From: Deltaproteobacteria bacterium RIFCSPHIGHO2_02_FULL_44_16
GTDB taxonomy: Bacteria; UBA10199; 2-02-FULL-44-16
Assembly (NCBI GenBank): GCA_001798185.1
Contig: MGRM01000008.1
Coordinates: 1 to 64,000, forward strand
Direction of reading: 5' to 3'
Length of the DNA stretch: 64,000 nucleotides
Part shown: positions 24,601-44,861 of the stretch, piece by piece
Layout of the letters: every line of letters begins with the position of its first letter
Position numbering within the stretch: the stretch's first letter is position 1
Translations under genes and position numbers: made by a program
Notes under the pieces: generated by a model
What the model saw: only the letters and a program-made list of their open reading frames with translations
The model's database searches: none
What the model was told of the DNA's origin: nothing

Positions 24601-24861
24601 TTATTTCAGATGAGCTGAAATGAGTTTCGTCATTTCAAACATGTTCACTTGTTTTTTGCCGCCGAAGACGATTTTGAGTTTGTCGTCTGCATTGATGTTT
24701 CGTTTATTCTTGGCATCTTGAAGATTGTTTTTCTTGATATAAGCCCAGAGCATTTTGACAACTTCAGTTCGAGGCAGCGGTTCATTTCCGACAATTGCCG
24801 CTAATGCTGCATCTGGTTGGAGTGGTTTCATGAACGCTGTATTCTTTTTCTTTTCTGCCAT
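24601..24861 (-). CDS. SWIB/MDM2 domain protein
   Basis: The 86-residue protein is a single SWIB domain: F-M-K-P-L-Q-P-D-A-A-L-A-A-I-V-G, L-P-R-T-E-V-V-K-M-L-W-A-Y-I-K-K-N-N-L-Q, and D-K-L-K-I-V-F-G. The domain is best known from eukaryotic chromatin remodellers and chlamydial topoisomerase fusions; stand-alone bacterial forms are found in several phyla and may bind DNA or proteins. The start is ATG 24861 with AAGGAGG ahead of it. Confidence 0.9.
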   Translation of the reverse strand: MAEKKKNTAFMKPLQPDAALAAIVGNEPLPRTEVVKMLWAYIKKNNLQDAKNKRNINADDKLKIVFGGKKQVNMFEMTKLISAHLK

Positions 24862-34117: not shown

Positions 34118-34451
34118 TATTGAAGGATGTGCACAGTTTTATATCGATCTTTTTGGCTTTCAAACGCTCGATCGGAAATATAACGATACAGGAGAGCTTC
34201 GCGCTCTTTGGTTACGTTGCGGCGAAATTATTTTCATGTTCGAAAAAGGTGAACCAGAAACAGAGAGCCACGGAGTGATTGCTTTTTCGATTCAGCGAAA
34301 GGATCGAGAAACGTGGAGAAAAAAATTAAACCACATGTCAGTCCCTATCACGCGAGAAAGTCAGTTCAGTATATATTTTCCAGATCCTGAGGGGAGGGCT
34401 CTTGCACTGTCTCACTCTCCAGAAGTTCTTGAGTGGGAAGAGGAGCGATAA
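34050..34451 (+). CDS. VOC (glyoxalase/bleomycin-resistance) family protein
   Basis: In the ~133-residue protein, L-H-H-L-A-L-F-V-D-D-I-E-G-C-A-Q-F-Y-I-D-L-F-G-F is the N-terminal VOC betaalphabeta motif and F-S-I-Y-F-P-D-P-E-G-R-A-L-A-L the closing one, with His and Glu in metal-ligand positions. The TTG start at 34050 is chosen because GAAGGAGG lies just before it; the gene then overlaps the kinase 3' end by 68 bases. Substrate unknown. Its last 86 bases also overlap the convergent mtgA gene. Confidence 0.8.
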   Translation: MSPSNFQHLSISKLHHLALFVDDIEGCAQFYIDLFGFQTLDRKYNDTGELRALWLRCGEIIFMFEKGEPETESHGVIAFSIQRKDRETWRKKLNHMSVPITRESQFSIYFPDPEGRALALSHSPEVLEWEEER

Positions 34452-35094
34452 GTCTGCGTTCGATGAATCTCATTCTTTTCGTGACATGCCGAGGTGGCGG
34501 AAAACGTCCCCACTTTTTTGGGCTCGGTAAGATCGAAGCAAGAAAAGCTGCTTCTGAAACCGTGAGATCGGATGCTGTTTTTTTGAAATAGTAATGAGCT
34601 GCCGCTTCAGCCCCATAAATTCCTTTTCCCCATTCGGCAATGTTGAGATAGATTTCTAAAATTCGATCTTTCGAAAGAAAATATTCCATTTTCCATGCGA
34701 TCCAAATTTCGGCGAGCTTCCGCCACACATATTTATCGCGTGAAAGATAGAGATTGCGCGCTACCTGCATCGTGATGGTTGAAAAACCGTGGGAGAATGA
34801 ACGACGGTTCACATTTCGAAAAAAAGCGTGTTTCATCTCTTCATAATCAACGCCACGATGCTGATAAAAACGGCTGTCCTCTGCTATGACAACAGCTTGT
34901 TGAAGATTTTTTGAAATATTTGAAAGAGGAATCCAAGAATATGAAAACGGATGTTCTTCCTGCTTCATATAAGAAGTTTTTTTTATCGAACCAGAACGAA
35001 GGGAAGGAATATAAGGAACAAAAAAAAGAGAGAGGAGAAAAACAATCAGAATTCCAATAGATAAACGTTTTTTAAGGCTCAGAGATGACGTCAT
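34366..35094 (-). CDS. mtgA: monofunctional peptidoglycan transglycosylase
   Basis: The 242-residue protein has one N-terminal helix (about 11-28) and a GT51 domain: V-V-I-A-E-D-S-R-F-Y-Q-H-R-G-V-D with the catalytic Glu, F-S-H-G-F-S-T-I-T-M-Q-V-A-R-N-L-Y and R-I-L-E-I-Y-L-N-I-A-E-W-G. It polymerises lipid II glycan strands at the inner membrane. It lacks a transpeptidase domain, as expected for MtgA. It overlaps the VOC gene tail to tail. Confidence 0.93.
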   Translation of the reverse strand: MTSSLSLKKRLSIGILIVFLLSLFFVPYIPSLRSGSIKKTSYMKQEEHPFSYSWIPLSNISKNLQQAVVIAEDSRFYQHRGVDYEEMKHAFFRNVNRRSFSHGFSTITMQVARNLYLSRDKYVWRKLAEIWIAWKMEYFLSKDRILEIYLNIAEWGKGIYGAEAAAHYYFKKTASDLTVSEAAFLASILPSPKKWGRFPPPRHVTKRMRFIERRLIAPLPTQELLESETVQEPSPQDLENIY

Positions 35095-35165: not shown

Positions 35166-35195
35166 TTGACAATTATCCTCTGCTTCTTGAATATC
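35166..35195 (+). promoter_or_regulatory. promoter of the histone gene
   Basis: TTGACA (35166-35171), 18 bases, AATATC (35190-35195), 45 bases before the ATG, with TAAGGAGGA as ribosome site. Strong -35 and ribosome site suggest high expression. Confidence 0.6.
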
Positions 35196-35240
35196 CGTCG
35201 CACAAAATAATGCCTTTAAAACCCTTATAAGGAGGAATGT

Positions 35241-35420
35241 ATGGCAGCAGAAACACTGGTCGTGGTCTCAAAGATTAAGGATTTTGTGAAGTCAAAAGGT
35301 TTCCGTACGTCGGAAACAGCAGTGGACGCTCTTTCAAAAGCAGTTGAAGAGCTCTTAGGCAAAGCCATTGAGCGTGCAAAGGACAATGGCCGTCAGACCG
35401 TAAAAGATTCTGATATTTAA
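35241..35420 (+). CDS. bacterial single-histone-fold protein (59 aa)
   Basis: This 59-residue protein reads as one complete histone fold: short helix one V-V-V-S-K-I-K-D-F-V-K-S-K-G, loop F-R-T-S, a long central helix A-V-D-A-L-S-K-A-V-E-E-L-L-G-K-A-I-E-R-A-K, loop N-G-R-Q-T-V and a short last helix K-D-S-D-I. The R-x-T-V after helix two matches the R-T pair of archaeal histones. The pattern closely follows the Bdellovibrio histone Bd0055 as I remember it. Such proteins bind DNA as dimers. It has its own promoter, an ideal ribosome site and a terminator, so it is a single-gene unit. Confidence 0.88.
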   Translation: MAAETLVVVSKIKDFVKSKGFRTSETAVDALSKAVEELLGKAIERAKDNGRQTVKDSDI

Positions 35421-35443: not shown

Positions 35444-35476
35444 AAAAACGCCCCCATTATTTGGTGGGCGTTTTTT
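35444..35476 (+). terminator. terminator of the histone gene
   Basis: AAAAACGCCC (35444-35453) pairs with GGGCGTTTTTT (35466-35476) followed by further T-runs. It is the end of a compact monocistronic unit. Confidence 0.9.
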
Positions 35477-38498: not shown

Positions 38499-38601
38499 TG
38501 TCATCGCGAGCCCGAAGGGCGTGGCGATCTCCTCAAATCACTGCTTGCAGGAGATTGCTTCGTCGCCCGCCATGAAGCGTGGCGGGCTTCTCGCAATGAC
38601 A
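38499..38601 (+). repeat. palindromic repeat family A, copy 2
   Basis: This 103-bp copy contains an extra GCCCGCCATGAAGCGTGGCGGGC hairpin between the TTCGTCGC and CTCGCAATGACA parts. Confidence 0.92.
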
Positions 38602-38624
38602 TATGTGGGCTTTGTAGAAGTATG

Positions 38625-38706
38625 TGTCATTCTGAGCCCTTCGACTTTGCTCAGGGCAAACTCCGCGAAGAATCCCGACGGGATTCTTCACCCGTTCAGG
38701 ATGACA
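38625..38706 (+). repeat. palindromic repeat family C, copy 2
   Basis: TGTCATTCTGAGCCCTTCGACTTTGCTCAGGG, then GAAGAATCCCGACGGGATTCTTC and CAGGATGACA. It runs into the start of the following glycosyltransferase gene. Confidence 0.9.
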
Positions 38707-40287
38707 AGAAGAGGCAACGTGATATTTCAAAAGAAAACTTTTTCTTTTTATCTCTTTTTATTCCTTCTTCTTTCATTTTTTGCCTTAGTTCTTTTTTATC
38801 GCTTAGATCATTTTACCTTTTGGCAAGATGAAGCAGAAACAGCGCTCCTTGCCAAATCGATCTTCCTTCACGGTGTTCCACAGACTCTTTTTGATGATGT
38901 TTGGATCACGCAGTTTCATGGAAAAGAATCGACTTCACAGCATCTCTGGTATTTCACTCCATGGCTTCCGTTTTATCTCTGCGCTCTTGGATTTAAACTT
39001 TTTGGGATGAACGAGTGGGGCGGCAGAGTTCTTTTTGCGCTTTCAGGCTTTTTTTCAGCCATCATGTTGGGACTCATTGCATGGAAGTGGATAAAAAACA
39101 GATCTGTAGTCGTCTGGACCCTCTTTTTTTACGTTACCAATGTTTCCGTCATTCTTTATACTCGTCAGTGCAAATATTATCCCTTGTATCTTCTCGGTTC
39201 TTGTCTCGCACTTTATGGCATTTTGAAATGGCATGAAAACCGCCGCGGTTTTTTTCTGACAGCTCTCGGTTTTCTCATCTGCTTTCATTGTAATTATCTC
39301 TCGGCTTTTTTAGCTTTTTTTGGTTTCGGATGCTACACACTTTCTTCAAAACAGCTGCGACCTCTTTTTTTCAAGATGCTGCTGACGATTCTTGTTTTCT
39401 TCGGCCCCTTTTTACTGCTCGCTTCGATGAGCGAAAGAAGTAACATTGTGAGTCAATGGCCGTCAGTTCTTCTCTATTTCAAAAAACTCGGCACCCAATT
39501 TTATTATTGGAACGGACAAGTCTTCCCCTTTCTTCTGGGATTTCTCCTTTGTTGGTTTCGACCTCCTTTTTTAAAATTCATTGGTCTTACTATCATCAGT
39601 TCCTTTCTTCTTCTCCCGCTTGTTGGCTCTGACCTCTTTCGATACAATCTTCACCTGATTCCGCTCTTTTGTTTGCTGCTCGGTTATTTACTTTATCGAT
39701 CTTTTGCGTGGAACAAATATTTTGGACTCTCTCTTTTTTCAATTCTGACATTTACGAACATTCTTCAAAATTTTCCCGACGCCTTTGTCCAAAAAGAGAT
39801 AAGACCCCTTTTTCAAAAACGAGAATGGATTGCTCTCAAAAATTATTATTTCAAAGCCTCTCAAGATCCCTTTAAGATTCTTCCCTCATTTTTGCCTCAT
39901 CTCTCTCCAAAGAATGAACATGCATTTTTAAATCACGATCAAATGCCGTGGCAGTGGTACCTGAAAATGCCTCTCGCCTATATGGCGATGTCTGAGAAAA
40001 TTTCTTCTAAAACTCCTCCTGTTCCCGAACATTTTTTAGAAAAGCACGAGATCGATTGGTGGATTGGGCCACATCTCGTCAAAATGGGAGATGGCCCGTA
40101 CCTCTCTGAAGAAGAGATCGTACAATTGTGGAGAGAAAAGGGGTATCGATACGAAAGAATCGATACTCAGATTCCGATTCTTTATTGGGATTTAAATTCT
40201 CCGATTCGATATCGACATTTTTTGGAACGATTTTCTGATGATCCAAAAACTACAAAAACAATACACCTCATCAGGCGCATGAAGTGA
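38701..40287 (+). CDS. ArnT/GT39-like membrane glycosyltransferase
   Basis: The ~528-residue protein has about ten membrane helices. F-W-Q-D-E-A-E-T-A-L-L-A-K-S-I near residue 40 is the first-loop acidic motif of GT-C enzymes (PMT/ArnT/GT39), which take sugar from polyprenyl-phosphate. G-R-V-L-F-A-L-S-G-F-F-S-A is another typical stretch. The likely donor synthase is the divergently placed GT2 gene. The start is uncertain: ATG 38701 lies at the end of repeat C, and GTG 38719 has AAGAGG just before it. Confidence 0.8.
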   Translation: MTRRGNVIFQKKTFSFYLFLFLLLSFFALVLFYRLDHFTFWQDEAETALLAKSIFLHGVPQTLFDDVWITQFHGKESTSQHLWYFTPWLPFYLCALGFKLFGMNEWGGRVLFALSGFFSAIMLGLIAWKWIKNRSVVVWTLFFYVTNVSVILYTRQCKYYPLYLLGSCLALYGILKWHENRRGFFLTALGFLICFHCNYLSAFLAFFGFGCYTLSSKQLRPLFFKMLLTILVFFGPFLLLASMSERSNIVSQWPSVLLYFKKLGTQFYYWNGQVFPFLLGFLLCWFRPPFLKFIGLTIISSFLLLPLVGSDLFRYNLHLIPLFCLLLGYLLYRSFAWNKYFGLSLFSILTFTNILQNFPDAFVQKEIRPLFQKREWIALKNYYFKASQDPFKILPSFLPHLSPKNEHAFLNHDQMPWQWYLKMPLAYMAMSEKISSKTPPVPEHFLEKHEIDWWIGPHLVKMGDGPYLSEEEIVQLWREKGYRYERIDTQIPILYWDLNSPIRYRHFLERFSDDPKTTKTIHLIRRMK

Positions 40288-40509: not shown

Positions 40510-41694
40510 ATGGTTCACACTGTCATCGTTGCCGCAGCTCGCACACCGATTGGAAGTTTTCAGGGAGTGCTCAGTTCATTTCAAGCGCCCCAACTCGGTG
40601 CTTTGGCCATTCGCGAAGTGGTTGCACGTGCGCACGTGGATGTTTCCGAAATCGATCATGTGATTATGGGCTGTGTTTTAACCGCAGGTCTCGGCCAAGC
40701 TCCGGCGCGTCAAGCTTCCATTGGAGCAGATCTTCCAAATACGATTGGCGCTCTGACAATCAATAAAGTTTGCAGCTCTGGTCTTCGGGCCATTATGCTC
40801 GCGGATCAAATCATTCGGGCAGGGGATGCAGACGTCATTGTCGCCGGTGGTATGGAATCGATGACCAATGCTCCTTATCTCCTTCCAAAAGCGCGTACCG
40901 GATATCGACTTGGCGATGGCGCTGTCATTGACTCTATGGTCTACGATGGACTTCGCGATGCGTATGATGGCAAGCATATGGGAGAACATGCCGAGAACTG
41001 CGTTCTCAAATATCGTTTTTCACGCGAGGACTTGGATGCATTTGCCATTGAAAGTTATCGACGTGCACAGCGAGCAAGCGCAGAAGGTTTTTTTCGTGAA
41101 GAAATTGTTCCCATTGAAATTCCGCAAGCAAAAGGGATGTTGCTTCGATGTGAAACTGATGAAGAACCGAGTCGAGTCAATTTTGACAAAATTTCCTCTC
41201 TCAAACCGGTTTTCAAAAAAGAGGGATTCATTACGGTTGCCAACGCGAGCTCTCTGAATGATGGAGGAGCTGCGGTCATCGTCATGTCAGAAGCAAAGGC
41301 GAAAACATTCGGTTTAACCCCCCTTGTTCGAATTGTGGGTCATGCTGAAAGCTCTCAAGAGCCTCAATGGTACACCACAGCACCTGTAAATGCTATTAAA
41401 GCAGTTCTTGAAAAAACAAGTTTAAGTATTCAAAATATAGATATTTTTGAAATTAATGAAGCTTTTGCTGCCGTCACGTTAGCAGCGATGAAAGAATTTC
41501 ACCTTTCAGCTGATCAGGTAAATATCAATGGTGGTGCTGTTGCTCTTGGTCATCCTATTGGAGCAAGTGGGGCAAGACTTGTGGCAACAGCGACTTCTTT
41601 GCTGAGACGTTTGAAAAAACAGCGAGCGATCGTCACTCTGTGTAATGGTGGTGGTGAAGCAACAGCAATGGTGTTGGAGCGTATGTCATCCTGA
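40510..41694 (+). CDS. acetyl-CoA C-acetyltransferase (thiolase)
   Basis: The ~394-residue enzyme has the complete thiolase set: V-C-S-S-G-L-R-A nucleophile Cys (near residue 88), N-E-A-F-A, G-H-P-I-G-A-S-G and L-C-N-G-G-G-E with the second Cys. It makes or splits acetoacetyl-CoA or longer 3-ketoacyl-CoA. The start ATG 40510 is preferred to a TTG at 40489. The stop (M-S-S-stop) lies within repeat C copy 3. First gene of the acyl-CoA cluster that continues to about 47 kb. Confidence 0.93.
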   Translation: MVHTVIVAAARTPIGSFQGVLSSFQAPQLGALAIREVVARAHVDVSEIDHVIMGCVLTAGLGQAPARQASIGADLPNTIGALTINKVCSSGLRAIMLADQIIRAGDADVIVAGGMESMTNAPYLLPKARTGYRLGDGAVIDSMVYDGLRDAYDGKHMGEHAENCVLKYRFSREDLDAFAIESYRRAQRASAEGFFREEIVPIEIPQAKGMLLRCETDEEPSRVNFDKISSLKPVFKKEGFITVANASSLNDGGAAVIVMSEAKAKTFGLTPLVRIVGHAESSQEPQWYTTAPVNAIKAVLEKTSLSIQNIDIFEINEAFAAVTLAAMKEFHLSADQVNINGGAVALGHPIGASGARLVATATSLLRRLKKQRAIVTLCNGGGEATAMVLERMSS

Positions 41695-41762
41695 GTGAAA
41701 CGAAGGATCCCGGGATTCTTCGCGGAGTTTACCCTGAGCAAAGTCGAAGGGCTCAGAATGAC
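41684..41762 (+). repeat. palindromic repeat family C, copy 3
   Basis: Family C element in the opposite internal order to copy 2 (GAAGGATCCCGGGATTCTTC, then CTGAGC and CAGAATGACA). It contributes the last two serine codons and the stop of the thiolase. Confidence 0.9.
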
Positions 41763-41866: not shown

Positions 41867-42718
41867 ATGACTACTCTCAAAACAATTGGTGTGATCGGAG
41901 CAGGACAAATGGGAAGCGGGATTGCACAAGTGTTTGCGACCGCTGGTTTTCACGTAGTACTGCAAGATACCAATGCAAAACAATGCGCAGAGGCAAAGAA
42001 GGGGATTGAAAAATCGCTGACAAAGTTTGTTGAAAAAGGAAAACTTGCTGCTGATCAAAAAGAAAACATTCTTGCTCGCCTCACCACAACAACTGAGCTT
42101 CAAGGTATGAAACAAGCAGATGTGGTGATTGAAGCCGTGACTGAAAATTTAAATCTCAAACTCCAAATTTTTTCGCAACTCGATCACATCGCGCCCTTAC
42201 ATGCCATTCTTGCGAGTAATACTTCGTCTATTTCTATTACATCGCTCGCAGCCGCGACCCATCGTCCTGATAAAGTCATTGGAATGCATTTTATGAATCC
42301 TGTTCCTCTCATGAAAGGGGTCGAAGTGATTCATGGTCAGCAGACATCAGCAGAGACAGCGAAGGTGATTGCATCGCTCATTCAGAAATTAGGAAAAACT
42401 CATGTGAGTTCAAAAGATGTCGCTGGATTTGTGGCCAATAGAATTCTCATGCCGATGATTCGCGAAGCCATTGAAACGCTCGAACAGGGAGTAGCAAGTC
42501 GCGATGACATTGATCGTTGTATGATCGACTGCTGCAATTTTCCGATGGGACCTCTTGCGCTGGCTGATCTTATCGGGCTTGATACATGTGCGTCGATTTT
42601 ACATGTGATGGCTGATGGTTTGGGAAATGATAAATATCGTCCGACGAAACTGATGCAAAAAATGATTGCCGAGGGAAAACTTGGAAGAAAAACTGGAGAA
42701 GGTTTTTATAACTATTGA
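41867..42718 (+). CDS. hbd: 3-hydroxybutyryl-CoA dehydrogenase
   Basis: In the ~283-residue enzyme, G-V-I-G-A-G-Q-M-G-S-G-I-A-Q is the NAD-binding loop and M-H-F-M-N-P-V-P-L-M-K carries the catalytic His. The C-terminal G-F-V-A-N-R-I-L-M-P-M-I-R-E-A domain follows. It oxidises or reduces (S)-3-hydroxybutyryl-CoA. ATG 41867 starts at the usual position ahead of the Rossmann fold. Not fused to a hydratase. Confidence 0.93.
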   Translation: MTTLKTIGVIGAGQMGSGIAQVFATAGFHVVLQDTNAKQCAEAKKGIEKSLTKFVEKGKLAADQKENILARLTTTTELQGMKQADVVIEAVTENLNLKLQIFSQLDHIAPLHAILASNTSSISITSLAAATHRPDKVIGMHFMNPVPLMKGVEVIHGQQTSAETAKVIASLIQKLGKTHVSSKDVAGFVANRILMPMIREAIETLEQGVASRDDIDRCMIDCCNFPMGPLALADLIGLDTCASILHVMADGLGNDKYRPTKLMQKMIAEGKLGRKTGEGFYNY

Positions 42719-42721
42719 GGG

Positions 42722-42818
42722 TGTCATCGCGAGCCCGAAGGGCGTGGCGATCTCCTGACAACACAAGAGATTGCTTCGTCGTCCCCCAAAGATTCATGGG
42801 GGACTTCTCGCAATGACA
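42722..42818 (+). repeat. palindromic repeat family A, copy 3
   Basis: Contains an additional GTCCCCCAAAGATTCATGGGGGAC hairpin before the closing CTCGCAATGACA. Confidence 0.92.
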
Positions 42819-43619: not shown

Positions 43620-43628
43620 ACAAAAAGA

Positions 43629-43695
43629 TGTCATTCCCGCGAAAGCGGGAATCTCAAGTGTTTACATGAGATCCTTCGTTTCACTCAGGATGACA
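43629..43695 (+). repeat. hybrid B/C palindromic repeat
   Basis: Begins as family B (TGTCATTCCCGCGAAAGCGGGAATCTC) and ends as family C (GATCCTTCGTTTCACTCAGGATGACA). A chimera of two families. Confidence 0.85.
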
Positions 43696-43709
43696 ACGAG
43701 GAGTACAGA

Positions 43710-44861
43710 ATGAATTTTGAATTAACCGAAGACCAAAAATTGCTTCAACAAACGGTTCGTGAATTTGCACAGCATGAGATTGCACCTCATGCTGCAAAGC
43801 TCGATGAGCTTTCGGAGTTTCCGTATGAACATGTCAAAAAAATGGCTGAGCTGGGACTGATGGGAATGATGGTACCACCTGAGCTTGGTGGCGGTGGCAT
43901 GGATAATCTCTCGTATGTTTTGGCGCTTGAAGAACTCTCTGCAGCATGCGCTTCCACCGCAGTGACGATGTCGGTCAACAATTCACTTTATTGTGGTTGT
44001 CTTCTCAGTTCTGCAAATGAAGCTCAGAAGAAAAAATATATTCCCGATTGGGCGTCAGGGAAAAAGCTCGGGGCGTACGCTCTCTCCGAACCCGGAACGG
44101 GTTCCGATGCTGCAAATCAAAAAACCACTGCGTCAAAACAAGGAAATAAATATCTGCTCAATGGAACGAAAAATTTTATTACGAATGGTCCTCAAGCCGA
44201 TGCCATGATTGTTTTTGCCATGACTGACAAAGAAAAACGTCATAAAGGAATTTCGGCTTTCATTGTTGAGAAAAATTTTTCTGGATTCAATGTGGGCAAG
44301 GTCGAAAAGAAAATGGGGATTCGCGCAAGTTCCACTTCTGAAATTGTATTCAAAAATTGTGAAGTTCCAGTTGAGAATCGATTGGGAGAAGAGGGAGATG
44401 GATTCAAAATTGCGATGACAACCCTCGATGGCGGTCGCATCGGCATTGCAACTCAGGCGCTCGGCATCGCGCGCGCTGCGTTTGAAACTGCAGCGAAATA
44501 TTCAACACAGCGAGAAGCTTTTGGACAAACGATTTCTCAGTTTCAAGGCATTCAGTGGAAACTTGCAGATATGGCCATGAACATTGATGCTGCGCGTCTC
44601 CTCATTCATCGTGCTGCGTGGATGAAGGCTCGTGGAGAACGTGTCACCAAGCAAGCTGCGATGGCAAAACTTTTTGCATCAGAGATGGCAATGAATGTCA
44701 CAAAAGATGCGATTCAAGTTCTCGGAGGTTACGGCTATTGTCGCGAATATCCCGTCGAACGCTATTTCCGCGATGCGAAAATTACCGAGATTTACGAAGG
44801 GACCAGTGAAATTCAGCGTATTGTGATTGCTCGTGAAGTATTAAAAGAGATCACTTCATGA
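43710..44861 (+). CDS. acyl-CoA dehydrogenase, short-chain type
   Basis: The 383-residue flavoprotein has the acyl-CoA dehydrogenase signature motifs: A-Y-A-L-S-E-P-G-T-G-S-D near 125 and Q-V-L-G-G-Y-G-Y-C-R-E-Y-P-V-E-R with Y-R-D-A-K-I-T-E-I-Y-E-G-T-S-E near the end. The catalytic Glu lies in I-Y-E-G-T. It oxidises saturated acyl-CoA to enoyl-CoA with electrons to ETF. It overlaps the mutase gene by four bases. Confidence 0.93.
   Translation: MNFELTEDQKLLQQTVREFAQHEIAPHAAKLDELSEFPYEHVKKMAELGLMGMMVPPELGGGGMDNLSYVLALEELSAACASTAVTMSVNNSLYCGCLLSSANEAQKKKYIPDWASGKKLGAYALSEPGTGSDAANQKTTASKQGNKYLLNGTKNFITNGPQADAMIVFAMTDKEKRHKGISAFIVEKNFSGFNVGKVEKKMGIRASSTSEIVFKNCEVPVENRLGEEGDGFKIAMTTLDGGRIGIATQALGIARAAFETAAKYSTQREAFGQTISQFQGIQWKLADMAMNIDAARLLIHRAAWMKARGERVTKQAAMAKLFASEMAMNVTKDAIQVLGGYGYCREYPVERYFRDAKITEIYEGTSEIQRIVIAREVLKEITS

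Follow-up and report, generated by a model that had tools for sequence, protein, structure and literature searches.

Among bacterial histones, one dimer and one tetramer have been characterised well. HBb (Bd0055) of Bdellovibrio bacteriovorus (PDB 8CMP, 8FVX; PMC10627809, PMC11317129) typifies the "bacterial dimer" class, which lacks the R and N through which dimers associate in face-to-face (FtF) histones (PMC11390915). The bacterial dimers, of which HBb bends DNA (PMC11317129), are distinguished from the FtF histones, which are tetramers and are represented by HLp of Leptospira perolatii (PDB 9QT0), a protein that wraps ∼60 bp and whose dimer-dimer interface is built by R49, N53 and R55 (PMC12701072). 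The published FtF profile consists of R48, N52, R54, T56 and D61, with R48 and N52 absent from the dimers (PMC11390915). Bacterial FtF histones have already been reported, mainly from Spirochaetota, Planctomycetota, Bdellovibrionota and Myxococcota (PMC11390915). None of the main texts covered by our literature search mentions the lineage studied here; earlier surveys may still include it.

The histone gene described below lies in a stretch of 64,000 nucleotides (the window). It probably represents a further tetramer-type histone, from an uncultured lineage of phylum rank in which histones are the rule and HU/IHF-family proteins are universal.

The gene and its expression signals

The features of the locus are as follows.

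35166..35171, + strand: conserved TTGACA (−35-like) box with a poorly defined −10, exact in 13 of 15 orthologues
35229..35235, + strand: Shine-Dalgarno sequence AAGGAGG, 5 nt before the ATG
35241..35420, + strand: histone gene, 59 aa, probably an FtF-type α3 histone (from sequence, orthologues, predicted fold, residue signature and tree)
35444..35475, + strand: intrinsic terminator hairpin followed by a T-rich tail (RNA folding)
Within the 59-aa protein: predicted helices α1 (∼2–18), α2 (25–48) and one-turn α3 (56–58); putative interface residues R45, N49 and R51

The open reading frame consists of an ATG, 59 codons and a TAA, and its product is MAAETLVVVSKIKDFVKSKGFRTSETAVDALSKAVEELLGKAIERAKDNGRQTVKDSDI. 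It is a real, conserved gene for a single-domain α3 bacterial histone, and it stands alone with its own conserved expression signals, as the sequence-only reading had proposed. Orthologues are present in all eight genomes examined from the same family and order (71–78% identity). Seven genes of the same length from the order differ from the window gene at 48–61 bases, with 31–39 of the differences at third codon positions, 8–14 at first and 7–11 at second positions. The protein has a net charge of ∼+1, and is the sole histone detected in the 1.98 Mb assembly (97.5% complete) in searches by its own sequence and by PF00808.

The gene's shortness would fit a spurious ORF, as would its family scores: PF00808 gives 18.7 bits, below the Pfam gathering cut-off of 21.4 bits, and the NCBIfam matches likewise fall under their cut-offs. 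Conservation already refutes this reading, and its probability is negligible when the orthologues in all eight relatives, the codon-position bias, the shared expression signals, the conserved gene neighbourhood and the confident fold prediction are set against it. Because the scores lie under the cut-offs, annotation can miss or misname the gene.

Two of the three expression signals named in the sequence-only reading are borne out. The ribosome site is strong, and so is the terminator (−19.8 kcal/mol and z = −5.7 for the segment 35438–35486), with hairpins downstream of the orthologues too. The third, a TTGACA promoter of the gene's own, stands as far as the hexamer is concerned. An exact TTGACA lies 50–79 nt upstream in the 13 orthologues noted above, and TTGACT in one; in the 15 upstream regions it usually lies behind a T-rich tract, and the rest of the sequence has diverged. 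The arrangement TTGACA...AAGGAGG at the spacing of the histone gene occurs once in the window, versus 0.07 times expected. The −10 is not well defined: the hexamer at normal spacing, GAATAT, is poor (3/6 matches), and for this reason a strict promoter scan called no promoter at the histone gene, so comparative evidence was used in its place. That the gene looks well expressed is a fair inference from its sequence.

Predicted fold and structural matches

Clear sequence matches of the window histone are limited to solved bacterial and archaeal histones. In the PDB, HBb is matched at 6.9e-11, HLp at 1.3e-10 (without gaps) and HTkC at 1.3e-5. Both Bd0055 and archaeal histones had been suggested for comparison at the outset. 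An AlphaFold2 model of the single chain, based on nine sequences that include three distant histones from viral contigs, has a pLDDT of 86 and shows the helix-long helix-short helix histone fold, with the helices listed above. A model from six close sequences (pLDDT 67, helix fused) was discarded.

The first-ranked Foldseek match of the model is HLp (9qt0; E 5.2e-4, TM 0.73–0.76), followed by HBb and then HTkC, with nucleosomal histones far behind. Taken alone, these scores cannot distinguish HLp from HBb. The best PDB matches are all α3 histones, and the model has their features, namely a single fold, a shortened α2 and a one-turn α3. It departs from archaeal nucleosomal histones in its PF00808 score and in having a short rather than a long α3. 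In the plasmid collection, all 24 matches are DNA-binding/DUF1931 proteins, and the organisms listed are all haloarchaeal. No match to the window histone was found in PHROGs or in the phage collection.

Small single-domain histones also occur on four IMG/VR contigs classed as viral (L110–L113). One of these, L112, has an Arg at the FtF position and a C-terminus one residue past the Asp; no PHROGs family convincingly matches L110 or L112.

Tetramer or dimer type

The window histone carries a complete FtF signature, R45-x3-N49-x-R51-x-T53-x4-D58, in which R45, N49, R51, T53 and D58 stand for R48, N52, R54, T56 and D61 of the published profile. The "R-T pair" that had been noticed earlier corresponds to R51 and T53 (R-x-T). 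The protein aligns to HLp over the fold without gaps, and shares its R/N/R interface residues, its RD clamp and its C-terminus, which in both the window histone and the 63-residue HLp lies one residue past the Asp. The two are 45% identical in the structural alignment, and differ in that the window histone has a shorter N-terminus (no tail) and D48, Q52 and S57 in place of S52, T56 and T61 of HLp.

HBb has the α3 fold in common with the window histone, is ∼51% identical in the structural alignment, and shares several DNA-contact residues. It differs in having S45 and D49 where FtF histones carry R and N, in an L1 that is one residue longer, and in N22, K52 and R57; the latter three, which hardly vary among the dimers, are replaced by R22, Q52 and S57 in the window histone. 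In addition, the window histone has the L2 sequence RQTVKDSD rather than the RKTxxxD-type motif of the dimers. The archaeal FtF histones (HTkC, PDB 9F2C, and the haloarchaeal plasmid histones) resemble the window histone in the short α3, the FtF Arg and the lack of a tail, and the haloarchaeal proteins also in the FtF Asn. They are 37–42% identical to it and differ in the length of L1, and the haloarchaeal members are acidic.

Histones were typed in the phylum of the window and in a second phylum. The 22 sequences of FtF type from the phylum have a mean identity of 62%, and none of them departs from R45, N49, R51, T53, K55 or D58. Residues 45 and 49 differ among the 23 dimer-type sequences, in which K52 (23/23), R57 (23/23) and N22 (22/23) are conserved. 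R alone is present in a few dimer-type sequences, and the R and N pair was found in none of those classified. Two further sequences that bear R and N are divergent and have C-terminal extensions.

In a tree, a single branch (93/82 and 94% bootstraps) splits the FtF-type sequences, together with HLp, HTkC and the haloarchaeal FtF histones, from the dimers, and HLp is nested among the FtF sequences of the phylum (99/95). The tree is unrooted and contains three solved references; with its ∼60 alignment columns we consider it modest evidence for the type.

The sequence-only reading had assigned the protein to the Bdellovibrio type; this label is not supported, but the choice is understandable because the profile of the order is about equally near to HBb (57 bits) and HLp (53 bits). 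Clear-cut members of the phylum are separated widely by the same comparison (L017: HLp 1.4e-19 versus HBb 9.7e-6; L040: HBb 8e-20 versus HLp 6.6e-6). Typing by best hit was therefore rejected for the window histone, whose type was assigned from diagnostic residues and tree topology instead. More generally, the type of a histone should be decided by its residue signature, and not by its best match.

If the protein were of the Bdellovibrio type, a lone dimer would bend DNA like HU. We regard this as improbable. Its similarity to HBb is as high overall as that to HLp, and 6 of 10 HBb DNA-contact residues are retained (S9, K10, K12, K16, S24 and T53), but the HBb contacts at 22, 52 and 57 are substituted, the protein carries R45 and N49, which do not vary among its orthologues, L1 has no insertion, and the C-terminal end and tree position are FtF-like.

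A candidate mechanism

What is established for the window histone is a conserved gene, a predicted histone fold, the presence of the FtF residues and a position in the tree. Our preferred reading, with a probability of roughly 77%, is that the protein is of the FtF tetramer type, akin to the DNA-wrapping histones of Leptospira and archaea. Judging from the predicted fold and from homology, two chains would pair via their α2 helices to form a histone-fold dimer. The conserved residues suggest that two such dimers would close into a torus-shaped tetramer by contacts at either end, made by R45, N49 and R51 together with the C-terminal end of the facing dimer. By analogy with HLp, the outer surface (S10, K11, K13, K17, T23, S24 and T53) would hold the phosphate backbone, and the tetramer would wrap DNA over ∼60 bp irrespective of its sequence. 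The protein may serve in nucleoid architecture alongside four HU/IHF-family proteins.

Several observations count against the tetramer reading, including the equal nearness of the order's profile to HBb. Three of nine HLp DNA contacts (A13, G29 and T56) are replaced by V9, E25 and Q52, the HLp interface residues S52 and T61 are replaced by D48 and S57, and there is no N-terminal tail of the kind that bacterial FtF histones commonly have.

The histone fold might also belong to some other complex or to a local regulator, rather than to global chromatin. The four HU/IHF-family proteins, which may make a global architect unnecessary, and the net charge of just ∼+1 would suit such a role. We consider it very unlikely, as the backbone-contact residues S10, K11, K17, T23, S24 and T53 are invariant in the orthologues (K13 nearly so), the expression signals are strong and conserved, and non-specific DNA binding is documented for the characterised relatives HBb and HLp (PMC11317129, PMC12701072).

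Histones and HU across the phylum

Of 46 genomes examined from the phylum, 38 encode a histone of some type, and all 46 have HU/IHF-family genes. The window genome has four of the latter, whereas Leptospira is reported to be without HU (PMC12701072); its cell, unlike that of Leptospira, thus need not rely on the histone alone.

Dimer-type and FtF-type histones occur together in nine genomes, which contribute nine dimer-type sequences. In the order of the window, our searches detected the FtF type alone and no dimer-type histone. This coexistence of both histone types and HU within one phylum is of more interest than a new FtF member. Several genomes with both types make division of labour and origin testable within a single lineage. 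The histones of the order, being equally HBb- and HLp-like overall yet having the tetramer interface, could conceivably be evolutionary intermediates, in a setting where sister families keep FtF-type and dimer-type genes side by side; we put this forward as a tentative and rather doubtful idea. If true, the lineage could reveal how evolution passed between dimers that bend DNA and tetramers that wrap it, and histones and HU would jointly make up the chromatin of its cells.

Other forms were also seen in the phylum. Five histones of ∼150–180 aa have a Cys-rich, zinc-finger-like N-terminal part, like the published ZZ histones, and in one genome (G015) a ZZ-like gene accompanies both an FtF-type and a dimer-type gene. 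In G028, a dimer-type histone (L016, L067) has an L1 two residues longer and a C-terminal tail bearing His and Cys (LHNHSGGCC).

Gene neighbourhood

In relatives from the order and in several families of the class, the histone gene adjoins a conserved block of mtgA-like, dcd-like, ferredoxin-like, dnaJ-like and thiolase-like genes (names assigned from reading the translations). In the window, the terminator lies between the histone gene and the dcd-like gene. The mtgA-like gene (34366–35094, − strand) is upstream of the histone gene here and between the histone and dcd-like genes in most relatives; its position in the window is a local rearrangement.

The SWIB domain that had been remarked on at 10 kb is real (24607–24828, − strand, ∼10.4 kb from the histone), but nothing links the two functionally. 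In G001 the two genes are 1.8 kb apart and in G013 ∼6 kb, and the intervening genes differ. Across the phylum the presence of one does not follow that of the other: three genomes without a detected histone have full SWIB domains, and most genomes of the order that have the histone carry no full SWIB domain. SWIB as a functional partner is thus unproven, and a loose linkage is possible.

Elsewhere in the window, spurious translations at ∼38530–38730, 41550–41741, 42570–42797 and 43620–43710 have repeat-like strings in common (such as LRANSAKNPDGIL / LRVNSAKNPGILRFTQDD), which suggests a dispersed intergenic repeat family.
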